NCBI GenBank assembly: GCA_964036275.1
Contig: OZ038437.1
Coordinates: 12,952,638 to 13,016,637 of the forward strand
DNA: 64,000 nt
Origin: Litoditis marina
Lineage: Eukaryota > Nematoda > Chromadorea > Rhabditida > Rhabditidae
Direction: 5' to 3'
Part shown: positions 22,740-52,752 of the stretch, piece by piece
Layout of the letters: each line of letters begins with the position of its first letter
Position numbering within the stretch: position 1 is the first letter of the stretch
Position numbers and translations under genes: made by a program
Notes under the pieces: model-generated
Told to the model about the DNA's origin: nothing
The model's database searches: none
The model's input: only the letters and a program-made list of their open reading frames with translations

Positions 22740-23180
22740 CCTATTCGATTAACTAGTACTATAAAAGGGTTAATTGTGTAATAAACACTGTTTTTAGTTT
22801 TTTTCTCTCTAAATCTTGCTCTCTGCTCACAGTAACCGTTTTATTGCGTTTGAACTTTGTTAAAATAGTTTTTACACGTCTAACTTAACTACTTGTATCA
22901 CTAGTACTATAATAGCGGTGTTAATTAAATGATAAAAACTGTTTGTAGTTTTGTTTCCTCTGAACCTAAAAAATTCTAAAATGAAATCTTTTCTTACAGG
23001 CATGAAGTCACCGTTTTGTTGGGTTTGAACTTTGTTATAATTGTTTTAACATGTCTGTACACAGTTCACGTACTCATTATATGTCTATTACTACAATAAA
23101 GACTACCTGTTTCACTAGTACTATAATAGCGGTGTTAATTAAGTGATAAAAACTGTTTGTGTTTTGTTTTCTCTGAATAG
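22740..23180 (+). repeat. Repeated promoter modules upstream of collagen copy A
   Basis: A block reading TCACTAGTACTATAATAGCG, then TTAATTAA and TGATAAAAACTGTTTG, occurs at about 22890 and 23110, with a diverged version near 22750. It is also upstream of collagen copy B (near 30430-30480, inverted). Confidence 0.6.
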
Positions 23181-23258
23181 TGCTTGAACTAACTGGTTTT
23201 GTTGCGGTTTCACTCATGCTAACCATGCTGAGAACCAGTAGAGACAATAGTAGATAGA

Positions 23259-23269
23259 CTATAAAAAGG
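23259..23269 (+). promoter_or_regulatory. TATA box of collagen copy A
   Basis: CTATAAAAAGG, about 45-50 bp upstream of the start codon at 23313. The mirror-image gene has the same box at the same distance (30318-30328). Confidence 0.7.
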
Positions 23270-23312
23270 AGAATAACAAATCAAATCATTCACATTCAAC
23301 TGCCCTCCAAAC

Positions 23313-25722
23313 ATGGTAAGTGAAAAACTACTTTAACTTTAAACTATTTGTTCTATTTCGCAAATAGTTTCATTTTCTTTTGATATTCTTCATTGTCTTG
23401 TTATTTTGTTAGATATTAACTGTTATGAAAAGTTGCAAAAACTTTTCTCGAAAACAGTGTTGTAACACGTGTTTTTCATGTCCAATTGCGGTTTATTATG
23501 TACTTCGCACTCAACTCAAACCAAAAACGAAGAAAAAGAAAAAATGTAGTATGGAAACTAGAAACATTCTAAATCTTCTGATTTTTTGTAGTTTGGTAAC
23601 ATTCTATTTTGTAGTTTGGTAACGTGCAGTACCACCTTCTGGCCGGTACCTTCGCCTGCTCTAGCATCCTGCTACTCTCCTCGTTTTACATGATCTATGA
23701 CATCTGCGACGAGATCAACGAATTCCAACTGAAAGTCAAGGAAGATCTCGGAGAGTTCAAGGTACACTTGTAGTATGGTTCACGTGAGACTCACGTGAAA
23801 CTCACGTGATCATTTTGCACACAGTAAGAAAGACCAACGTGTAAATTGCACATATTTTCCAGAGTGTAAAAATCATTCGAAAGATCTAAAAACCCTGAGA
23901 TTCTTTTTACTAGGCGCTACAATCATGAAAACCTCGTGCAAAAATATGATATTATAGTTAACTATTACAAATTATTCGTACTAAAACGATTCATGACGAT
24001 AATCGTGTGAAAATCGACCAATTCTTCCGGAGACAGAGTACTGTACACCTGAGTTTCTGCTGTGTACAAACATTTTTGTTATTAGGGCTATGCTGATGAC
24101 GCGTGGAACGTGATGATGATCTCCGGTAGATCAAACATGATCAATGACGTCATCAGACAGAAGAGAGGCGGCGGATACCAACAGAGACCGGAAGGGGGCG
24201 GGGCCCAGGGAGGAGGACAATGCTGTAAGTTCACTAGTAAAAGTACACGTTGAACGTGATAGTGACAAATGTCTGGAAACAGTTGAACTAATGTGCTCCG
24301 TGAAAGATCAAATTGTTTTGACTTTGATTTAAGGATTTTCAGTCATGAAACACCCACATTTCCATAAGGTTGTATTTTTAACGTAACCACAAGCTTTCAG
24401 AAGACGTTTTTTATCGGGCAAAATTAGGCTTTTTAAGTAACTTTGAAATTTTTGGAATTGAAAGTTTGCCTATTCGATTCACATGTACACAAACATAATT
24501 ATAAAAGCCACAGTTGAGTTTCTGTCTACTGTTGCGAGCTTACTACTTTCCAGCCTGCGGAGCCCAAGCCTCCGGATGTCCCCCCGGACCTCCCGGACCT
24601 CCCGGTCAGCGCGGTCTCGACGGAGAGCCCGGTCAGCCCGGTGGAGACGGACAACCGGGAGGTGCCGGTCTGGCTGCCGACAGCTCCAGCGGCGGCGGCT
24701 GCATCGAGTGTCCTGCCGGACCACCCGGACCACCCGGACCAGATGGAGGTCCCGGACAGCCCGGAGCTCCCGGTAACCCCGGTCAGGACGGACAGGGAGG
24801 CGGCATGGGCGCACCAGGTACAGTAATACAAAGTATACTAATCGTAATACTGATTCATACGAGATTGGATGCATACACATGTTAAAGTGATAGTAATCGG
24901 AATGTTAACAGAGTTCCCATGACAAATACTAGACCGTAGGGTTGATGCCGACCGGGACAATCATCATCTGACAAAGAAGGAAACATTCAAAAACCAAGTT
25001 CATAATTTACCAGGTATGCCTGGACCTGCCGGAGGACCCGGTCCCGACGGAAACCCCGGAGCTCCCGGAGGCCCCGGACAGGACGGACAGCCGGGCATCA
25101 GATCTAGCGGAACCCCCGGACCGGCTGGTGCTCCCGGACCCGCCGGTGGACCCGGACAGCCCGGTCCCGACGGACAGAGCAACGGAGCTGGAGCACCTGG
25201 ACCAGCTGGACCACCCGGACCTCCCGGAAACAACGGAATGCCCGGAGGTCCCGGACCTGCCGGTAACCCCGGACAGGACGGACAACCCGGTGGTGATGCT
25301 GCCTATTGCCCCTGTCCCGGTAGAACCTCATCTGCTGTTGATAACGGAGGTCAGCAACAGGGAGGATACCAGGGTCAGCAACAGCAGCAGCAGCAGCAGC
25401 AAGGAGGATACCAACAGGGTAAGTTGCAGACTCCGTTCGCATTAATTTAACCTTTCACCCTATGAAGCACACTTCAATTGGCATTTTATAATCAAAACGT
25501 AACCGTTGTTAAAGGTTCGTCGTAGAGAGTTATGAAACACTGAACTTCAATTTATTTCCAAACCAGCATGTAAATTTTGAGTATGCGATATAGAGTTACG
25601 ATGGATGAATCCCACTAGTTAAATTTAAGACACTATCTAGAAACACTCTGTCTACAAAACAACTTTCAAACTTTCAATTTTTTTCAATTCCAGGTGAAGG
25701 CTGGAGACAACGCCGTCACTGA
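23313..25722 (+). CDS. Cuticle collagen, copy A
   Basis: Exons 23313-23315, 23615-23761, 24086-24224, 24554-24817, 25014-25418, 25694-25722; phases agree, 328 residues. Exon 1 holds only the start codon. Residues 1-50 form the nematode cuticle collagen N-terminal domain with a membrane/signal segment (about 8-30). RQKR (74-77) is a subtilisin-type processing site. Two Gly-X-Y blocks follow (in exons 4 and 5), split by a glycine/serine stretch with CIEC, and the C-terminus has a CPCP pair, a glutamine-rich tract and GEGWRQRRH. Cuticle collagens are secreted, trimerise and are crosslinked in the exoskeleton. A TATA box lies upstream and AATAAA just downstream (near 25747). Intron 1 holds an extra copy of the exon 2 acceptor (TGTAGTTTGGTAAC). 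No specific col, dpy or rol gene is assigned. Confidence 0.95.
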
Positions 25723-27892: not shown

Positions 27893-30273
27893 TCAATGGC
27901 GGCGTTGTCTCCAGCCTTGACCTGAAAAGAAAAAAATCGAGAAAAGTTCGATAGTTGATGAAAGTTGTAGCTTTTAGTTTGGTTTTTACGGTTTTGTAGC
28001 CCTCCACTGTGCAACGATGGAACTTTCGAGTTAGATTGAAAAGGTGAGGTCAAGTATTTTATAACTATTCACGTTTTCATAAAATCTATACTTTGATTGA
28101 GAAACAGTCAATTGAATTTCTCCTAATACCGTAAATAGTCTCGATTAGTGGAACGGAGTATGTCACTTACCCTGTTGGTATCCTCCTTGCTGCTGCTGCT
28201 GCTGCTGACCCTGGTATCCTCCCTGCTGTTGAGCTCCATTATCAACAGCAGATAAGGTTCTACCGGGACAGGGGCAATAGGCAGCATCCCCACCGGGTTG
28301 TCCGTCCTGTCCGGGGTTACCGGCAGGTCCTGGCCCTCCGGGCATTCCGTTGTTTCCGGGAGGTCCGGGTGGTCCAGCTGGTCCAGGTGCTCCAGCTCCG
28401 TTGCTCTGTCCGTCGGGCCCGGGCTGTCCGAGTCCACCGGCGGGTCCGGGAGCACCAGCAGGTCCGGGGGTTCCGCTAGATCTGATGCCCGGTTGTCCGT
28501 CCTGTCCGGGGCCTCCGGGAGCTCCGGGGTTTCCGTCGGGACCGGGTCCTCCGGCAGGTCCAGGCATACCTGGTAAATTATGAACTTAGTTTTTGAATGT
28601 TCCCTTTTTGTTACTTTGTCAAATGATGATTCTCTCTGTCGAACTCAACCCTACGGTCTAGTATTTGTCATAGGAACTCTGTTAACATTCCGATTACTAT
28701 CACTTTAACATGTTTACGCATCCATTCTCGCATGAATTCAAATTTCGATTAGTATAATTTGTATTACTATACCTGGTGCACCCATGCCGCCTCCCTGTCC
28801 GTCCTGACCGGGATTACCGGGAGCTCCGGGCTGTCCGGGACCTCCATCTGGTCCGGGGGGTCCGGCTGGTCCGGCAGGACACTCGATGCAGCCGCCGCCG
28901 CTGGAGCTGTCGGCAGCCAGACCGGCACCTCCCGGTTGTCCGTCTCCACCGGGCTGACCGGGCTCTCCGTCGAGACCGCGCTGACCGGGAGGTCCGGGAG
29001 GTCCGGGGGGACATCCGGAAGCCTGGGCTCCGCAAGCTGGAAAGTAGTCAATTATGGAAGAGAATACACAGTTTATTCGTGATTGAAAACATGACTTTCA
29101 GAATTTGATGTTCGATCTGGCACTCCTATTCGGTATGTGGAAACAACTTGGATAATTTAGTTTATTAAAGATGTGAAAACCGCCGGTCATTCAAGAGAAG
29201 TTGTACACTAGTCGCATTTGTGTTGAATTCAAGTTTAACTATGCTCTGATTCAAGGCATCTAGCTTTCAGCGTGACAACGTTTCCCTCACGTTTTCATGT
29301 TCCACGTGACCAGTTCTTTTACTAGTGAACTTACAGCATTGTCCTCCTCCCTGGGCCCCGCCCCCTTCCGGTCTCTGTTGGTATCCGCCGCCTCTCTTCT
29401 GTCTGATGACGTCATTGATCATGTTTGATCTACCGGAGATCATCATCACGTTCCACGCGTCATCAGCATAGCCCTAATAACAAAAATGTTTGTACACAGC
29501 AGAAACTCAGGTATACAGCACTATGTCTCCGGATGAATTGGCCGATTTTCACACGATTGTCGCCATGAATCGTTTCAGTACTAATAGTTCGTAATAGTTA
29601 ACAACAATATTATTTTTTTGCACAAGGTTTTTTATGATTGTAGCGCCGAGCAAAAATAATCTCAGGGTTTTTAGATCTTTCGAATGATTTTTACACTCTG
29701 GAAAATATGTGCAATTTACACGTTGGTCTTTCTTACTGTGTGCAAAGTGATCACGTGAGTTTCACGTGAGTCTCACGTGAACCATACTACAAGTGTACCT
29801 TGAACTCTCCGAGATCTTCCTTGACTTTCAGTTGGAATTCGTTGATCTCGTCGCAGATGTCATAGATCATGTAAAACGAGGAGAGTAGCAGGATGCTAGA
29901 GCAGGCGAAGGTACCGGCCAGAAGGTGGTACTGCACGTTACCAAACTACAAAGAGAGGAAATCGTGCCAAACTACAAAGTCTGAATGTTACCAAACTACA
30001 GAAATCAGAAGATTTAGAATGTTTCTAGTTTCCATACTACATTTTTTCTTTTTTTTTGTTTTTGGTTTGAGTTGAGTGCGAAGTACATACTTAACCGCAA
30101 TTGGACATGAAAAACACGTGTTACAACACTGTTTTCGAGAAAAGTTTTTGCAACTTTTCATAACAGTTAATATCTAACAAAATAACAAGACAATGAAGAA
30201 TATCAAAAGAAAATGAAACTATTTGTTAAATAGAACAAATAGTTAGAAGTTAAAGTAGTTATTCACTTACCAT
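27893..30273 (-). CDS. Cuticle collagen, copy B
   Basis: Exons (minus strand) 30271-30273, 29799-29945, 29335-29473, 28773-29036, 28171-28569, 27893-27921; 326 residues. Domain order is as in copy A: N-terminal cuticle collagen domain with membrane segment, RQKR site, two Gly-X-Y blocks, CPCP and a glutamine-rich tail ending GQGWRQRRH. By eye, differences from copy A include one P to A in exon 4; P to L, S to L, G to A and two fewer glutamines in exon 5; and E to Q near the end. All exon boundaries are conserved. Intron 1 has three copies of the TGTAGTTTGG acceptor motif where copy A has two. AATAAA lies near 27870 on the minus strand. Confidence 0.95.
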
Positions 30274-30317
30274 GTTTGGAGGGCAGTTGAATGTATATAA
30301 TTTACCATAGTTATTCT

Positions 30318-30328
30318 CCTTTTTATAG
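30318..30328 (-). promoter_or_regulatory. TATA box of collagen copy B
   Basis: CTATAAAAAGG on the minus strand, about 50 bp upstream of the start codon at 30273; identical to copy A. Confidence 0.7.
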
Positions 30329-31159
30329 TCTATCTATCATTGTCTATACTGGTTTTCAGCATGGTTAGCATGAGTGAAACCGCAAGAAAACCAGTTAGTT
30401 CAAGCAAGATTCAGAGAAAACAAAACCACAAACAGTGTTCATCACTTAATTAACACCGCTATTATAGTACTAGTGATACAAGTAGTTAAGTTAGACGTGT
30501 AAAAACTATCTTAACAAAGTTTAACCGCAAGAAAACCAGTTTCTGTGAGCAAGATTCAGAAAACGTGTAAATGAGAAAGTAACATAGTTTACCCGCAGTA
30601 GGGATAATTAGGAGAAAACAAAACCACAGAAAGTAAAATTATAGTACAACTATTTAACAACATAAAAGTTGTAGATGGGTGAAACGGGTATACCACAATT
30701 GGTCTTGTTAAGTTTTATTTATACAATAAAATTAACTTTTATACAATAAAAAATTAAATTAAATATATACCAGATGGATTTTGTTCATATTCAGTGTCAA
30801 TCTCTGACAATAATTATTTCTCGGAAGCAATGACCTGTGAACACTGTGGCAATTTGAAATACCTAAGTCATCTGGGCCTCGAAATTTAATTAAAAATTAC
30901 CAAATTGAACCTTCGGCCTGCATTTTCGTTCACTCGAAATTCAAATTAGGTTCATTTCGCTTGATTAAGAGCCTGATAGCGTTACTATTAAAACGCATGA
31001 TACTGAATAACTATGTTTTTGCTGTGTAATACACACAAAAGAATGGTTTATGTATTGGATAGCGCACCCACCTTCTCTACACTTCCTTAGGCTGTTTCGA
31101 ACCCCCTACGCGGCAAATTGTTTGTGAATTTCATCACTCTCAGACCGATCAGTTGAACA

Positions 31160-40063: not shown

Positions 40064-40853
40064 CTTTTTTCACGAACGCTTCAACATTTGACTGTACGAA
40101 TTGCGTATTTCCTAATGGCTACCGTAACCTCGCTCTGCCAAAATACAGTTGGGAGGGGTGTGTTGTATAGTGCTATTTCAGCCGACCAGATTGTGAAACC
40201 ACATCCAACATCTATTTCGAGCTCGAAATAAGTATTTAATACTACTGTTTCACAAACGCTTCAACATTCGACTGTACGAATTGCGTATTTTCTAATGGCT
40301 ACCGTAACCCCGCTCTGCCAAAATACAGTTGGGAGAGGTGTGTTGTATAGTGCTATTTCAGCCGACCAGATTGTGAAACCACATCCAACATCTATTTCGA
40401 GCTCGAAATAAGTATTTAATACTACTGTTTCACAAACGATTCAACATTTGACTGTACGAATTGCGTATTTCCTAATGGCTACCGTAACCTCGCTCTGCCA
40501 AAGTACAGTTGGGAGAGGTGTGTTGTATAGTGCTATTTCAGCCGACCAGATTGTGAAACCACATCCAACATCTATTTCGAGCTCGAAATAAGTATTTAAT
40601 ACTACTGTTTCACAAACGCTTCAACATTCGACAGTACGAATTGCGTATTTCCTAATGGCTACCGTAACCTCGCTCTGCCAAAGTACAGTTGGGAGAGGTG
40701 TATTGTATAGTGTTATTTCAGCCGACCAGATTGTGAAACCACATCCAACATCTATTTCGAGCTCGAAATAAGTATTTAATACTACTGTTTCACAAACGCT
40801 TCAACATTCGACTGTACGAATTGCGTATTTCCTAATCGCTTTCGTATTCCTAC
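40064..40853 (+). repeat. 180-bp tandem array
   Basis: About 4.4 units of 180 bp with only a few differences between units; each starts near CACAAACGCTTCAACATT and contains TTCGAGCTCGAA. Diverged older units continue at 41690-41910 and 42190-42490. Confidence 0.95.
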
Positions 40854-42560
40854 TCATCTGTCAGTAAGTAGCTGATCTTCCGATTTCGTAGGCAGCTACA
40901 GTAACCCGATCCTTTAATTTGACTTAAAGCTAGGTGTTGTGGCACAAATTGTTTACGTCGTACGGGGTATGCTCAAAATAGCCTATAGAAGTGCAAAAAT
41001 GATTTCAAAACTTTCTATCACATGCGACTACACAATGGGAAACTAAAAAATCAAAATAAATCTGGATGTAAATGAACCAAGTCAAATTGCGTCACAGTGA
41101 AAATGTTCATGCCCCATCGCAATTTGCGGAGAATGTATTTTAAACTCGGACCACAAGAAGCACAATTTCGCGCTCATCTTGAAGTTGAAGGTTCGTTTAG
41201 TTTCTTACTAAAACATAGAACCAAACACAAATAAAAAACCTGAAACGTTTCACGAATTTGTGTGTGGTCCTTGCGCAAAGGCAATCTTCTCTGGCCCGCT
41301 AGCAATCCCTCAACAAACTCACGAGATACCTCATGAGCAAGATCTCACAAACATCTCATGAAATTCCATTGATTGCTATACAACAATATAAGAAGTTCAC
41401 GAGTAGCTCATGAGATGCTTATAAGATTCTCATGAGAAACTCATATCAATTCATCAATCGCTCAATCCTTTGAACCCATTACTTTTTCAGGAAAATTGCG
41501 AATACATCACGTCAGAGTTCTGGTCGTTGCTTCACCGATTGTGAAATACTCTACGATGTACCTTTTCTGAAAACAGGTCTGAAAGTGGTCCTCTGCGAAC
41601 TATAGTCCATACTCCAATTGTCCTGGTCAGGAAATTACATTCAAAGTATATTTCGAGCTGAAACTAAGTCTCTAAAACTACGATTTTGCAAGCGCTCTGA
41701 TGAATTCTATTTTCTATGATATTTCTTAATCCTTACCGTATCGAAGTGAAAAGGGATTGGTGTATGATTTAGTGGTATTTCATCGAACCAAATTGTGAAA
41801 TCGCTCCCAATGTCTATGTTGAGAGCCTAAATAAGTCTCTAGAACTACGGTTTCGCAAACACTTCAATATATTACTGTACGAATTTCTCCTTTTCTAACT
41901 TATACCTCATCTCCGCTCTACCAAAGTACACTTGGGAGCATATAGGGAGTTGAAAATTTGAGATAAACAATCGAACAAACTAAAAACACATCGAGATGGG
42001 ATACGTACATCACGTCCATACATCGTATAGACGTGCTCGGGAAGAGCGACTCGCATACTGTGAGCCAATCACACAGTCATGTGAAACATGTTAAACACAG
42101 CACAACTCAGAAACGTGCAATGACAAAGTGCACGGATGCCTCATTCGAATGCTAACTTCACGTGACTATTCGGTTGGTTTCTAGTATAGGCGGTGTTTCA
42201 CCAAACAAGATTGAGAAATCGCCCTCAATCTCTATTTTCAGCTCAAAGTAAGTGTCTAGAACTACAATTTCGCAAGCTCTTCATTATTTGACTGTACGAA
42301 CTACGTGTTTCCTAATCGCTACCGTATCCCTGATCGGTGATCTACCGAAGTAAACTTGGGAGTGGTGTGTGATATATGTGGTACTACACCAAACAAAAAT
42401 TGTGAAATCGCTTCCGAACTCTAATTTCAGCTCAGAATCTCAAATACTGAATTAATTGTACGAATTACGTCTTCTCTGATCGCTACAGTGTCCTCGCTTA
42501 TCTTGCAGTAAGTAGCTGAACTGCCGATTGCGTAGGCAACTACAGTAACCCGATCCTTTA
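40854..42560. repeat. Decayed extension of the 180-bp array and related dispersed element (family K)
   Basis: 40840-40925 and 42440-42560 share CTACAGTAACCCGATCCTTT and a CGTAGGCA motif, and the same block is found inverted at 62178-62300. A CTCATGAG foldback lies at 41325-41455 and a family D MITE at 42055-42188. No gene seen. Confidence 0.6.
42055..42188. mobile_element. Palindromic MITE, family D, copy 6
   Basis: ACTGTGAGCCAATCACACAG start and GGTTTCTAGTATA end; inserted within the decayed array. Confidence 0.85.
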
Positions 42561-45232: not shown

Positions 45233-48200
45233 AAGAGAGGGAGAGAGAGAGAGAGAGAAAAGAGGAAGACAAAAGTATGATAATGCTCACCGTTCGATCT
45301 GCGAACGCGGGCCGTTTCCGGGATTTTGGTCGTGGCGTGGCGACGAACTCCTTCAAATTGAAGAACTTGGATTTTTCTCATAAAGCGTGTTTTTAGTTAT
45401 CGATTGATGAGGTCTAGATTTTCAATGGTTTAGATCATTAATGATTTTTGATTCATGTCATTGAATGAATAATGATGTTACATTACATTTACTGTGAGCT
45501 AGTGACCCGCAGGACAAATACTCAAATGTACTATCAGTCAATTGCTCAGTCACGTGAAACATGTTAAACACAGCAGAACTCAGAAACGTGCAATGAATAA
45601 GTTCACGATGCCTCATTAGAATGCTAATTTTACGTGACTATTCAATTGAGTTCTAGTATAGTGATGTTTCCTTCCGTTCAACAAGACAAGCCTAAAATAT
45701 ACCACCTCACTAAATCTACTAGTGAATATCCCACTCCACTACACCTACGTAAGGTTGTTAGAGAATTGGCGTTTACTACAATAAGTTGATGACGTCATCT
45801 GACCTGAATGACGGTGATACTGTCGTTCTTCGAGTCACCCTCTTCCTCCTGCTTCTCCACTTTGATACTGATATTAGCGTTTATCAGATCCTGAAAAGAT
45901 GGAAATTTACAGAGAGAGAGAGAGAGAAAGAGAGAGAAAGAGAGAAGCAAGAGAGAGAAGCAAGAGAAAAAGAGAGAGAAAGAGAGAGAAAGAGAGAGAA
46001 AGAGAGAGAACGAGAGGTAAACATGAAACACACGTGTTTTCACGTTTCTCGTGATTATTTACTAGTGAACTTACCATGATCCTCTTGGTGGTCTCATTCA
46101 GGCCCGTTTTTCTCAATAGTATAGTTAAGACGAATTCGATGTCAAGGTTCAACACATCTCGAATCTTACACGTGCGTTCACGTTTCACGTAGACATTTAC
46201 TAGTGAACTCACCATATTTCTCTTGGTGGTCTCATTCAGGCCCGTTTTTCTCAACAGTTTTCTCACGTTTTCACGGTTCACCCGAATATTCACTAGTGAA
46301 CTTACCATAATTCTCTTGGTGGTCTCATTCAGGCCCGTTTTTCTCAACAGTTTTCTCACGTTTTCACGGTTCACCCGAATATTCACTAGTGAACTTACCA
46401 TAATTCTCTTGGTGGTCTCATTCAGGCCCGTTTTTCTCAACAGTTTTCTCACGTTTTCACGTTTCACGCAAATATTCACTAGTGAACTTACCATAATTCT
46501 CTTGGTGGTCTCATTCAGGCCCGTTTTTCTCAACAGTTTTCTCACGTTTTCACGTTTCACGCAAATATTCACTAGTGAACTTACCATAATTCTCTTGGTG
46601 GTCTCATTCAGGCCCGTTTTTCTCAACAGTTTTCTCACGTTTTCACGTTTCACGCAAATATTCACTAGTGAACTTACCATAATTCTCTTGGTGGTCTCAT
46701 TCAGGCCCGTTTTTCTCAACAGTTTTCTCACGTTTTCACGTTTCACGCAAATATTCACTAGTGAACTTACCATAATTCTCTTGGTGGTCTCATTCAGTGC
46801 CTGTTCCTTTTCGGCATGGATGGTCATCACCATTTCGCAGTTTCTGATCAGGGAATCAATGATGACGTCACAGTCGTCGATCGATCGCGCACTCACAGCG
46901 TCCACGCACTGACGCTGGATATTCTGGAGAGAGATCAAATTATTTATTATTGATTGATTGATTACCGGTTGATTATTAATTGATTATGTACTGATTATCA
47001 ATTGTTTATTGAATAAATGAAACCGACAGAAACCAGAATTCAACCAATTCACGCACTGTCGCTGGATTTCCTAAAGAGGAGAATGATTCATTTTTTTTCG
47101 AAGTATGAAATAACACAATTAATCTTTCACAATTTGTGATTCGAAAGCCAAAAATGATTGCTTCATAGACCTCAACAAGTAAACGATTTTCTTACTAATC
47201 ATAATTTGTACCTCCCACTACTCAGCCAAACACGTTTATAAGTAAGGGTATATACCGTGTATGGTAGTTTGTCAAATAGCTTGGATTGATGTGAATTGCT
47301 AAATATCCCCCCAATTCAGTGTATAATGTATTGAATTATATTTCTCATGTTGAAAAAGTCAGAACTCACAATCAGCTGCGGCTTGAAAATGGTGCTTCGC
47401 CAGTCGAGTTTCTTCACTTGATCGAGGTGGACCTTGCAACGTTCTTCGACCCGGGAAGAGAGCTGAATATATCAGGAAAATAGTTACAAAAATGTTATAA
47501 TAATAGTAATAGTAACAATTGTAGTTTTGGTATTGTGAAACTTCACCAAAGTCAATCACACGGTTCAATACTTTTTTCTGCAGAAACTGAGAAGAATCAC
47601 TGAGTCGTGTACAGAACAAGTTGCCATTTTTCTCACAACATTTCTTTCCTGAGCAGAATACGAACCATTGATTACAGTAGTCTGCATTTCTTATTTGGAG
47701 GTGCAAATTTGGACACTTTTGTATACTAGTAGTTAATTGCTCAGTCACGTGAAACATGTTAAACACAGCAGAACTCAGAAACGTGCAATGACAAAGTGAA
47801 CGATGCCTCATTAGAATACTGACTTTACGTGACCATTCAATTTACTTCTAGTATAAGAGGAACGTAATCATCATAGTCCATTCATTCATTTATGTAATTA
47901 CTTTATTCCAATTTGCTTCATTCTAGTTCACATATAGTTTTTATACATTTGGTGAACAGAGACTAAACCAACCTTCAACTTCATGATGGGCGCGAAATTG
48001 TGCTTCTTGTGATGCGAGTTCAGAATACATTCTCCACAAATTTGCGACTTCTCTACCTGAATTCGATGTTTTTGTAAATCAAAGCTCATTCGATATCAAA
48101 TGCTAGGAAAAATTGTAACGTTAGAAAGGATTTATGATCAAACTTGAAAGGTTTCAATAGTTATAGTTTACACCATTCCTACTGAGACTCCTACAGTAAC

Positions 48201-51200
48201 CCAACAAACTTTGCGGAGGCTGTTGTGAAGCTGAAAATTAAGGTCATGGAAAACGCTCTCGTATATTCAATATTCATTCGACCTGAAAACGGAAACGATA
48301 GTTGGTTTTTCATCCTTTTTCATCTCTTTTTCTTTACTTCCTTCTTCATACATTTCTTATAAATCCTTGTTTCAATAAATATACTATAAAAGGTGAATAA
48401 ACACTACCTTCTCCATATCGACTATAGTTGTCTTTCCCTTCTTAGTTCCCATTCCTTCCGAGCAGGTAACACAGCACATAACTAGCCAGGGTTGCATTCT
48501 ATCATTGCAGTTCGAGCATTTTGGCAGCGAATCCAACTTTTTCTGCTGAAAAACGAATGGGTTTTTAATTTTGGTTTTGGAACTGCCGGAAAATCACGAA
48601 TTTATCGTCCATACTTCGGCAAGACTCTAACAACTTACGCTGACAAATTGAAAACTTATGATCTCGAACTCTGGTGACGAATCCAATAATCAATTACATA
48701 TAAATATAATATTTTTCATTTTCATGATAATTATAACAAGGCTTAACTTTACAGCTTCGTTAACTCAATTTAAACTGTGAGCTTCATTGCTCAGCGTAAA
48801 TACAAACTCAAAAAGTACGTTTGTCATTCGCTCAGTGCTCACAAAAATAAGAGCTATAAGAATCTCCTCCTTCTTTCTTTCCTCTTCACAAGCTTCACTT
48901 TTTTGAATTACGGGTGGTACAGCCTTATTCCAAGATAAACTTCGTGATGATAAATTTTTTGCAAATTTACATAAAACTGACATTTTCCCTTCTTAGAAAA
49001 AAAAACTAAAAACTAAACGATATAACTGACCATTTCCTGTTTCATCATCTCCTCCCTTTTTCTCTCCTCTTCACATGCTTTTATTCCCTCCTCGGTCAAC
49101 TTCATCTCTTCTTCCAGTTTTCGTTTTCTCAGAGCGATTTTCTCGTTGTCGCTCACGATTTCCGCAGAAACGTGCGCGTCCAACTCGCGCAGCTTACGCG
49201 CGCGTTCTGGAAACGTTAAGTTACATACATTGTTAAAGGGGGCAGAAAGGGAAACGAGTTTAGGTACCCCGGGGTACCTAAATATAATGTTGCGTGCGCC
49301 AAAACAGGCAAACACGTGTCAACTGTATGCAAATTAGGTTCGTTAGTTTGAATTAAAAGTCATACTTATCGGTTTCTCTTGATAAGGTATTTTATTTTAA
49401 CTTTCCTTTCTGTCTCTCTTTAATTTGGCGCGGCAAAGACTTTGTTATATGATTCCTCTTACTTCAATCGGAAAGTCAGATTTTAGTTGTTTTCCTATTG
49501 CACCGACCAATCGCGCAGCTTGCGCGCGCGTTCCGCAAAATTGTATTTGCTGCAATTTGACTCAAAAACAGCTGTCAATTATAGAATTGTTTAAGTTGGC
49601 ATTTGGAAAGTCCAAATTTTGAATAAACTTCAAATTCTGGACTGGATTGAACCCATAGATTAGTGCCTTCCGCTAAAAATCATAGAAAGAAGAAGGAACG
49701 ACTGAAGTATCCACTTTTCACGTACTTCTCATGTATCTCTGACCTACGAGAAAGTACATGAAATCAGTTAACTACAGTCTGTTTCACGCAACGATAGCCC
49801 TCTACAGTAAGATTGTAAATCTTTCAAGTACATTATTCATATCTTGTAGATATTATAGATAGTTTGAACTTTGTGATTCTGTTTTATACAGGGGTTACTA
49901 CAGGCACAGAAAACAGTGAAGCTAAAAGTCTGTTTGTTGATTGAATAAATTGCCTTGAAGATTCGAAAGATTACTGTAGAAAGTCACTGATTGGTGGAAC
50001 GGAGTATATAGATCTCAAGAGTTGCTCGTTACATTACACGTAGGGATGAAAATGACTATATATTCGTCGTCAACGGAAAGGCGAAAGTCTACTGTATATC
50101 TCGTTTGCCGCTGTGTACGCACATATGTCTCCGATTCCGAAACAGGCTCGTCATGTACTCCAATAGCGCAGTGGTTAGCCCCGTGCTACAAATCTTTCGC
50201 TCGCTAGTTCGATTCCGGCGAGAGACGGAAATTTATAAATTTGGCACCCAGTATACTATACCTTGTTTGGCGATCCGCGCCGCCTTGATGTCTGCTTGCC
50301 GTTCTTCAACGATCTCTGGAAATATTAAATAAAAAATTGTTTCAACATAATATTATAAGAGGGATGTTTTAAGACAATGAAATTATATAAATGAGCCAAG
50401 TACTGAATAGCAACAATGACAGTAGAACAGTGTTGCGATTGTGCTGATTTTGACGTTTAAAGTTGTAGAACTGTTGAAAACTCCCAAAAAAGGCTAGGGT
50501 TGTTTGGTAGGTCAAAATCTTACAGAGAAAACCGTGACTTGACGTTTTTAACAAAAAGTTAGAAGTGTTTTTTTTTCTGATAAAGCCAGTTTTTCACTCA
50601 CGCATGATCTTGTAGTTTGTAGTGGAGAGAATGAAGGAACTCGGCAAGAAGTAGCATTTGTCGGATACGGGGCACGCCTTCGTGATCCTGAAAAATCAAT
50701 ATATTTATAAAAGTATAAAATTCAGAATCATAATTTTGGTTCATTCTCGGTTCTGGTCCACAGAAAACAGCGTGTACTACTTGACTATCATCATTCAGTT
50801 CCACTTATCGAATATTCTCCTCGCCTTGCATGAAAAAAAGTGCAATTTGAAACTTCCGCCAAAAATTAACAGCACTATACGTTTAGTAAATTACACAGTC
50901 ACGTGAAAACTTTCAAACACATCAAGAAACGTGCAATGGGACAAAGCGCACAATGCCTCATTAGAATGCTAACTTTACGTGACTATTAAATTTACTTCTA
51001 GTATACTGTGGCCCTTCATGTTTGATAATCAAATTCCATATACGGTTGATATTGATATCATGTAATTGTACGATTTACAATAAAGTGACGAAACGGATGA
51101 AACAAAGTGACGAATCGGAGTACACAAATTTATCTATGAAAGTTTCTCTAGGTTCTCCTAAAACGTTGCATACATGGAAAACAAAAATAGGGATAGTGAT

Positions 51201-51738
51201 AGAAAGTAGAGGTAGAAAGAAAGCAAGCGCGAGAAATAAGAGGGATTTTCCAACGATTAGTTTACATTTTGTAAGATTTGTAGGTTTTGTAAGTTTAAAA
51301 GTTAAACTTACAGGGAAGCTCGACACTCGATACAGATGGTGTGACCACATATTCCAACCATGGGTCGATGGCGAGAAGCATCTGAAAATGTACTAGAAGA
51401 AATAATATTATTATTTCAATTATTATCATAATCATTTTTATTGACATCAATATTTAGAAAAAACGTGGAGAACTAGTGTTTACGTTTTTATGTTGTGGAG
51501 TCCTGAAATGTTTCACACCTTTTGTGGTTGTTGTTGAATGTAGAGAGGAGAGAGGAGAGAAAAGAAAGAGGTAGAGGGAGAGATAGAAACAGAGAGAGAT
51601 AGAGATAGAAACAAAAAGGAAGGAAGAGAAAGTGTCAACTATTTATGATTAAATTCATAGACAGAAATCAGATTAGAACGAAAACTCAAAAGAGAAATGC
51701 TTACCGTACGATTTGCGGCAAACCGGGCAAGCGAGCAT
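44781..51738 (-). CDS. RING / coiled-coil / B-box (TRIM-like) protein with SUMO-related motifs, 12 exons
   Basis: Exons (minus strand): 51705-51738, 51312-51381, 50602-50687, 50262-50315, 49031-49206, 48408-48545, 47973-48056, 47370-47462, 46771-46923, 45804-45890, 45291-45365, 44781-44873. All phases agree; 380 residues in the shortest form. Residues 4-48 form a RING-like finger (ACPVCRKSY, ICGHTICIEC, ACPVSDKC), but its last cysteine pair is spaced C-x5-C instead of C-x2-C. Residues 64-140 are a charged coiled coil. Residues 141-214 are B-box-like (KCSNCNDR, CCVTCSEG, ICGECILNSHHKKH). After another helical stretch comes IKVE (305-308), a sumoylation consensus, a basic RPKSRKRP, and an acidic DDDVIVID end typical of a SUMO-interacting motif. 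It is probably a ubiquitin or SUMO-pathway E3 or scaffold; no NHL or SPRY domain is present. Alternative donors of exon 9 could lengthen it (see the array). Confidence 0.88.
45529..45660. mobile_element. Palindromic MITE, family D, copy 7
   Basis: CTATCAGTCAATTGCTCAGT start and GAGTTCTAGTATA end; in an intron of the RING/B-box gene. Confidence 0.85.
46075..46800 (-). repeat. 93-bp array of exon 9 end plus 5' splice donor (eight donors in one open frame)
   Basis: On the minus strand the exon 9 end (LNETTKRIM, then a GTAAGT or GTGAGT donor) is repeated. The last exon base before each donor is 46771, 46678, 46585, 46492, 46399, 46306, 46213 and 46075. The spacing is 93 bp six times, then 138 bp, always a multiple of three. 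The read-through frame has no stop from 46923 down to 45907, and each extra unit encodes 31 residues (VSSLVNICVKRENVRKLL plus the repeated exon end). No good acceptor was seen inside the units. Confidence 0.92.
47048..47070 (-). repeat. Duplicate of the exon 9 start
   Basis: The minus-strand GAAATCCAGCGACAGTGCGT after a TTTAG acceptor mirrors the start of exon 9 (46923), offset by 147 bp upstream in the gene. Confidence 0.75.
47723..47855. mobile_element. Palindromic MITE, family D, copy 8
   Basis: ATACTAGTAGTTAATTGCTC start and TTTACTTCTAGTATA end; in an intron of the RING/B-box gene. Confidence 0.85.
48861..48896 (-). repeat. Duplicate of part of exon 5 (coiled coil)
   Basis: On the minus strand it encodes EACEEERKKEEI, matching KACEEERKREEM at the end of exon 5 (about 49049-49082), 187 bp away in the intron. 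Confidence 0.75.
49233..49424. mobile_element. MITE, family I, copy 2
   Basis: TTAAAGGGGGCAGAAAGG start and CCTTTCTGTCTCTCTTTAA end, with the same perfect palindrome GGTACCCCGGGGTACC (49263-49278). It lies about 26 bp upstream of the acceptor of exon 5. Confidence 0.85.
49508..49532 (-). repeat. Duplicate of the exon 5 start
   Basis: AACGCGCGCGCAAGCTGCGC (minus strand) repeats the exon 5 start at 49206. The offset is 326 bp now, about 135 bp without the family I MITE between them. Confidence 0.8.
50055..50261 (+). mobile_element. tRNA-derived SINE, copy 13, touching a splice donor
   Basis: Full-length copy with A box (AATAGCGCAGTGGTTAGC) and B box (AGTTCGATTCC). Its end (ACTATAC) directly adjoins exon 4 of the RING/B-box gene, so the donor reads AAG then GTATAG on the minus strand, with TATAG contributed by the element. 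Confidence 0.88.
50874..51005. mobile_element. Palindromic MITE, family D, copy 9
   Basis: TATACGTTTAGTAAATTACA start and TTTACTTCTAGTATA end; in an intron of the RING/B-box gene. Confidence 0.8.
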
Positions 51739-52752
51739 ACTCGAAAGACTGAAAAATAAAAAATGTTGACAAGTTTTATTATAGAAACATGATAGTATTG
51801 AGAAAACTTAAACAACTGCAACTAGAGTTTTACCTAAGTTGGATGACTAAGTTACCGTAATTCGCAGATCCGTAAGGGAATCTAGGATTACCTTACGGTG
51901 TAATGGTCTACGCTGACAAAAAAAGTGTGGGTGAAACATTGAATATGTTACAGAAAAAAATAAGCAGTCGTTAAGGTAATCCTCTTTTCGAAAAATCTTA
52001 AACTTAGATTTGAAAAGAAGGTTGGTTAGGCTATTGAAGTTCATATGTTTTCAATAAAGTAAATATCAGAGTCGCACATTTGTATAATTATTGAACAAAA
52101 ATACGTTATTTTAATGACATATTTCAAGAGTTTGAACAGAATGGGTTCGATAAAATGGTTTGAAACTATTTTTTGAGAGAAATTTCAAAATTAGTCCAAT
52201 AATCCGTGATATTTGTAACAAAAGAAGTTGAGACATAGCCCGGTCAGGGCAGCTATGATACTGGAGGTTAACTAGATGTACCGCTATCGCGGGATGTCGC
52301 GACCTCGGCTAATTGAACTTCCTATATTCCTGGTTCTTTTACAGGTAAACCTTATTATAACGTGGTTTATTGCCCTTAATAACGGTAAAGGTCGTGGAAA
52401 AGAGCGAAAGTAGGCTGTCAAATTTCCAAATTTCATCCAATCTGTCATGACATAGGGGTCATCTAATCTGATTTCTAGTTTGATCTTAGTCTGCAAGTAT
52501 TTGTTAACAAATAAATTATATTAATAAGTTTTCATTGCCCCAAATAACGTTGAAAGTCGTAGAAAAGAGCGAAAGTGGTTCATGGTTGAGGGTCATCAAA
52601 AGAATTGTAGTTTGATCGACTGACCAAGGTTGGTATTTTGAACAATATTTTAGATCTGTTGGTATTTTTAACAATATTTTCGATTCTGTATTCATATTAA
52701 TATGTTTCACCAGTTATTGTAAGATCAGTATTATAACTGGAAAGGACTCGTT

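Follow-up and report, generated by a model that had tools for sequence, protein, structure and literature searches.

A minisatellite across a predicted exon/intron boundary carries eight in-frame splice donor sequences in a predicted RING gene of the nematode Litoditis marina

Within the stretch of DNA analyzed here, the 64,000-nucleotide window, a gene model built from splice signals and open frames places a gene on the minus strand that covers at least 51748 to 45795 and may extend further. A tandem array is made up of the 3' end of exon 9 together with its donor and the bases that open the following intron. The features of the model and the array are listed below in the direction of transcription, with coordinates of the window.

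47370 to 51748, minus strand: upstream exons 1–8 of the model, with a candidate RING finger, a helical region and two B-box-looking zinc exons
51748–51705, 51381–51312, 50687–50602 and 50315–50262, minus strand: exons 1–4 of the model
49206–49031, 48545–48408, 48056–47973 and 47462–47370, minus strand: exons 5–8 of the model
46771 to 46923, minus strand: short form of exon 9, 153 nt, 51 residues ending ...NETTKRIM, from the acceptor CTCTCTCCAG to the first donor
46891 to 46896, minus strand: another GTGAGT in phase, internal to exon 9 and not part of the repeat
46678 to 46770, minus strand: unit 1, with donor GTAAGT at 46770, 48 intron-like nt and 45 exon-like nt (VSSLVNICVKRENVRKLLRKTGLNETTKRIM)
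46585 to 46677, minus strand: unit 2, identical to unit 1, donor at 46677
46492 to 46584, minus strand: unit 3, identical to unit 1, donor at 46584
46399 to 46491, minus strand: unit 4, identical to unit 1, donor at 46491
46306 to 46398, minus strand: unit 5, 3 differences from unit 1, donor at 46398
46213 to 46305, minus strand: unit 6, 4 differences from unit 1, donor at 46305
46075 to 46212, minus strand: unit 7, 138 bp and diverged, donor GTGAGT at 46212; its exon-like part has 3 synonymous changes relative to unit 1
46021 to 46074, minus strand: last donor, GTAAGT at 46074, with a diverged intron start behind it
45891 to 46020, minus strand: remainder of intron 9, with a CT-rich tract and the lone good acceptor, CCATCTTTTCAG, ending at 45891 and common to all donors
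45795 to 45890, minus strand: exon 10, phase 0 (DLINANISIK...)

Exon 10 either ends with the stop codon ending at 45795 or, by inspection, is spliced onward from a GTCAGA after 45804. Two probable extra exons lie past it on the minus strand, at 45350–45291 and 44873–44781, and the second closes with ...EISDDDVIVID at the very C terminus, which resembles a SUMO-interacting motif. Just past exon 10, at 45500–45665, is a dispersed MITE-like element with 17 matches of 46–166 bp in the 64 kb (query included, E <= 1e-5), two of them in introns of the RING gene (47724–47855 and 50885–51008). The candidate RING finger matches Pfam zf-RING_5 at E 1.3e-5, with 25.5 bits just under the cut-off of 27.9, and the RING of TRIM32 at E 1.2e-5 and Roquin-1 at 1.6e-5; the B-box-like zinc exons match zf-B_box at E 0.13, with 12.9 bits against a cut-off of 24.1. 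Scans of the window with Rfam, at the gathering threshold, and for tRNAs gave no match. Acceptors in the model are of the TTTTCAG type, a trait that, with the collagen sequences and the size of the genome, points to a nematode.

Re-reading the sequence and recomputing the positions reproduced the array as the preliminary description had laid it out: eight GTRAGT donors on the minus strand, from 46770 down to 46074, separated by six intervals of 93 bp and then one of 138 bp. Every spacing is a multiple of three, so that phase 0 is kept, and a consensus 5' splice site is present in all eight. The exon 9 start given there, 46923, agrees with the gene model, and the frame is indeed open through all units, extending over 358 codons from stop to stop (46983 down to the stop at 45909–45907). 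The anatomy that would permit 31-residue steps, with its eight phase-0 donors and open frame, is real. Tandem Repeats Finder (TRF) reports 46177–46805 as a repeat of period 93 with 6.8 copies, 97% matches and a score of 1158, which excludes a chance arrangement. The additional GTGAGT at 46896 is also in phase 0, 27 nt past the start of exon 9.

By the gene model the array straddles an exon/intron boundary with a common downstream acceptor. Exon 9 could accordingly measure 153, 246, 339, 432, 525, 618, 711 or 849 nt, with intron 9 shrinking from 880 nt at the first donor to 184 nt at the last. With the first ATG in exon 1 taken as the start, the model protein would be 327 residues long for the first donor and 559 for the last, a range of 0 to +232 residues. 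Both of these choices were translated and are stop-free to the end of the model; the six middle donors are in frame because their spacings are multiples of three and the frame is open. An acceptor scan found the one good acceptor, at 45891, and in each unit just TTCACTAG, which is poor and, if used, would place a TGA behind the ATG. The array units therefore do not qualify as tandem duplicates of a whole exon, with acceptor and donor in each, and splicing of microexons within the array was likewise ruled out, since the units carry no good acceptor.

We searched the genome (261.8 Mb in 522 contigs) for comparable arrangements. The array is single-copy: queries of 1001 bases and of two units match solely here, in a search that skips common words. 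Three ATGGTRAGT motifs at 93–123-bp spacing occur in five exact overlapping matches genome-wide, all within the array, and a backwards control gave 0. Shorter-period tandem arrays of GTAAGT abound, at a level hardly above control, with three GTAAGT at 60–90-bp spacing found at 567 places against 488 in the backwards control, overlapping places of one array being counted separately. Single GTRAGT hexamers occur in the window at chance frequency (74 against 71.9 expected). What is special is thus the periodicity of the array and not the hexamers singly; arrays holding a given hexamer are everyday in this genome, and the position at an exon end is the unusual part. Two further repeats were seen along the way. 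A 180-bp satellite-like array of 4.3 copies occupies 40068–40840 of the window, and a long 68-bp tandem array lies at G000:C1:13963281-13968726 (loci L038–L054 make up its first part), where the units, among the matches listed, carry GTAAGTAGCCAC or a close variant; this is a GTAAGT-bearing satellite of quite a different kind. The genome seems rich in tandem arrays, and given this abundance slippage is a sufficient source for the array at exon 9.

The units themselves suggest how the array was built. Units 1–4 are identical to one another and, relative to unit 1, three positions have changed in unit 5 and four in unit 6, so growth of the array has been recent. Unit 7 is 45 bp longer and shares AAACGTGAAnnCACGTGT with the intron start past the last donor, a stretch that the 93-bp units do not have. 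Unit 7 is the older form; the first duplication probably involved about 138 bp, with a 93-bp deletion derivative expanding later. The exon end NETTKRIM stands in the flank upstream of the array and again in the last unit, as a duplication spanning the boundary would leave it. Inside intron 8, at 47078–47044 on the minus strand, the acceptor and start of exon 9 are partially copied a second time (CTCTTTAG followed by GAAATCCAGCGACAGTGCGTG), and both ends of exon 9 have therefore been duplicated at some time.

We also looked for relatives of the gene. Among 1069 word-sharing candidates in the protein database, none scored at E <= 0.001, and a conserved exon end can therefore not be read from orthologues. 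A paralogue search of the gene's own genome returned 14 matches up to E 10, of which nine are its own exons 2–10 (two run through a flank stop), one (L016) is a stray copy close by that resembles exon 7, and four are RING-only matches elsewhere. The stray copy of the B-box-like exon 7, at 41119–41193 on the opposite (plus) strand, has 80% identical residues over 25 and may be a fragment of an inverted duplicate or a pseudogene. No relative of exon 9 was found by tblastn in seven loci, which amount to four places because three are nested within longer ones; the best match had E 0.42 over 21 residues. At a RING gene elsewhere (L022, on C18) an exon could be matched to exon 9 by eye, as both measure the same between a C and the end of the exon, a correspondence that global alignment did not reproduce and on which we place little weight. 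That exon has a single donor at its end, and no further copy appears in the printed sequence beyond it, which hints, as far as a correspondence by eye allows, that the ancestral protein may have lacked the block. Pfam searches with three joined units produced 19 families up to E 1, which we took to be artefacts of repetition: for 17 of them, including DEK_C with a summed score of 26.0 above its cut-off of 24.8, no single stretch passes alone, and the other two fall under their cut-offs.

We considered whether the array has been translated. The earlier caution that identical units weaken the evidence of an open frame holds, since units 1–6 are so nearly alike that their open frame comes close to a single observation. 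Openness alone is also weak evidence because the frame remains open for about 55 codons past the last donor, where no choice of donor needs it. In the gene's other introns, 1320 of 3552 windows of 48 nt are open (0.37), as are 520 of 3192 windows of 93 nt. The chance that the array is both in phase and open is then about 1%, a rough product of 1/3 for the length of 93, 0.37 for an open intron-like part, 1/3 for the length of 138, and a last factor of roughly 1/3, estimated from the 48-nt rate, to allow for the additional sequence in unit 7.

A further comparison is with unit 7, which, as had been noted earlier, is diverged and still open and in phase. It differs from unit 1 at 10 of 84 aligned nt, the stretch around the 45-bp length difference being left out, and these changes alter 3 amino acids. 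The corresponding P values are 0.0046, 0.0072 and 0.0131 for transition biases of 1, 2 and 4; as the best of six comparisons, this range of 0.005–0.013 would become about 0.03–0.08 when corrected. In the 45 exon-like nt all three differences are synonymous (P 0.013–0.026), the 39 intron-like nt taken alone are not significant (P 0.11–0.18), and neither is the count of third positions (6 of 10 differences, P 0.077). Comparisons with the intron past the last donor, which is untranslated in every model, are unremarkable as expected (P 0.24–0.32 and 0.51–0.60). Between units 1 and 6, four differences fall in three codons and all three change the amino acid (P 0.72–0.80), including an I-to-N change in the exon-like part of unit 6. 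Thus, the pattern of divergence in unit 7 is a modest hint that the array has been translated, whereas no coding constraint is visible among the youngest differences. The proposal that intron is turning into coding DNA accordingly keeps modest support from unit 7 and draws none from the youngest units.

One alternative is that the array is a plain intronic minisatellite: splicing would take place at donor 46770 alone, leaving seven decoys inside an 880-nt intron, and the frame would be open by coincidence. Splicing at 46770 would yield the short protein, and an intron of this length would not stand out among the other eight in the model (286–1055 nt); the openness of the frame where no donor needs it, the neutral look of the young differences and the single donor of the possibly corresponding RING-gene exon all agree with this account. 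Against it stand the seven donors that have nearly the same strong sequence and lie nearer the acceptor, the small chance of an array both in phase and open, and the coding-like divergence of unit 7, and we regard it as unlikely. A second alternative, in which the last donor at 46074 alone is used, would make the seven units a coding repeat of 232 residues and the inner donors fossil or suppressed. It leaves the shortest intron and fits a unit 7 that is in phase, open and synonymous in its exon-like part, but the seven earlier donors are intact, an exon of 849 nt would be by far the gene's longest (the other nine modeled exons measure 44–176 nt), and AlphaFold2 lends no support to a fold of exon 9 with the array (run on a single sequence, with a mean pLDDT of 37.6, and hence weak either way). 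This fixed long exon appears to us quite improbable. Taking all readings together, the balance of the evidence leans toward translation of the array in an appreciable share of transcripts.

Donors 1–6 have the same surrounding sequence, and all eight are nearly alike and locally strong. The predicted accessibility of the donor nonamers is 0.001–0.035 for the eight in the array and 0.000–0.076 for the gene's other eight, and since the first range lies within the second, accessibility singles out no donor. A preference for short introns would favor the last donor, and exon size would favor the first. Among equally strong donors the one nearest to the acceptor usually wins; if one donor dominates, we therefore lean toward that at 46074, with its 184-nt intron.

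A 12-nt palindrome, TTCACTAGTGAA, overlaps the end of donors 1–6 and occurs nowhere else in the window, and neighboring units can pair through it. We regard this pairing as a lead rather than a result. The two-unit RNA folds better than its shuffles (z -2.45, with 4 of 200 shuffles as good), a score that we discount because a palindromic repeat pairs with itself by construction. The preliminary description had suggested a splicing switch dependent on repeat number, and for this we found nothing beyond the anatomy, the first six donors being alike and accessibility failing to discriminate. A regulated meter, in which stage, tissue or repeat number controls the donor in steps of 31 residues, is permitted by that anatomy, and pairing through the palindrome could in principle let unit number alter the exposure of donors; but array accessibility lies inside the range of ordinary donors and the young units lack constraint, and we consider such control very unlikely. 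The length-meter reading is attractive and possible, but unsupported. We would give scarcely any credence to its specific form, in which the pairing masks donors two by two and alleles of different unit count expose different donors, setting the spectrum of isoforms. If true, it would let a hypermutable minisatellite adjust protein length heritably, 31 residues at a time.

The reading we favor, and judge reasonably probable, is that a minisatellite lies across the exon/intron boundary and that its downstream donors are used in some transcripts, as a by-product rather than a switch. Tandem duplication of the junction of exon 9 and intron 9 would have given rise to the minisatellite, with a duplicated segment that took in the final 27–45 exon nt, the donor and no less than 48 nt of the intron, and a shortened 93-bp version would have expanded recently. 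With downstream donors presumably used in at least some transcripts, the exon would acquire a ragged end, and the protein would gain between 0 and +232 residues as a by-product of the repeat rather than through a dedicated switch.

Repeats that shape proteins through splicing are known from other systems. In the major internal repeat (W repeats) of EBV, repeat number sets protein length through splicing; there each unit provides whole exons with acceptor and donor, in contrast to the donor without a good acceptor in each unit here. The minisatellite of human IFI6 has a 12-bp unit, compared with the 93 or 138 bp of this array, which add 31 or 46 residues. That minisatellite of IFI6 (G1P3, 6-16) reportedly provides multiple splice donors, in work by Turri, Cuin and Porter (1995, Nucleic Acids Res 23:1854).

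A further report on IFI6/G1P3 describes two downstream repeat units that act as donors and so give three mRNA species encoding different isoforms (PMC4526556). The likeness is that a minisatellite supplies multiple donors to one gene; the difference is that donor use in IFI6 is reported from mRNA, whereas the present array is known from DNA. De Grassi and Ciccarelli (2009) described internal tandem repeats at exon-intron boundaries in human segmental-duplication genes, where boundary minisatellites that expand alter the structure of the gene and the repeats are often retained in an alternative transcript (PMC2812944); novel introns were inferred there, whereas donors alone are multiplied here. 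The potato RdRp case (PMC4974935) shares the tandem duplication of a segment crossing a splice boundary, but needs a new acceptor as well as a new donor, and the present units have no good acceptor. GYNGYN tandem donors are also neighboring alternative donors, but number two, three bases apart in the motif, and form no repeat array (PMC1779574). Our literature search found no donor array with units this long or from a nematode, which is a thin basis for claiming absence. A donor-bearing minisatellite is a rare but known kind of element, with IFI6/G1P3 as the precedent.

Eight near-equal donors facing one acceptor constitute a natural competition experiment for donor choice, and the array catches intron sequence at the moment of possibly becoming coding. 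With several donors in use, the protein would lengthen or shorten in large in-frame steps with unit number, a variation legible directly in alleles and cDNA; with one donor alone in use, the locus offers a clear instance of whatever rule governs the choice among identical donors. Elsewhere in the window, at 23102–25446 and 28144–30486, two collagen-like genes form an inverted duplication that is 93.2% and 93.8% identical over two blocks; the collagen sequences, which are presumably of the cuticle type, match Pfam Collagen at E 2.4e-5, under the cut-off.
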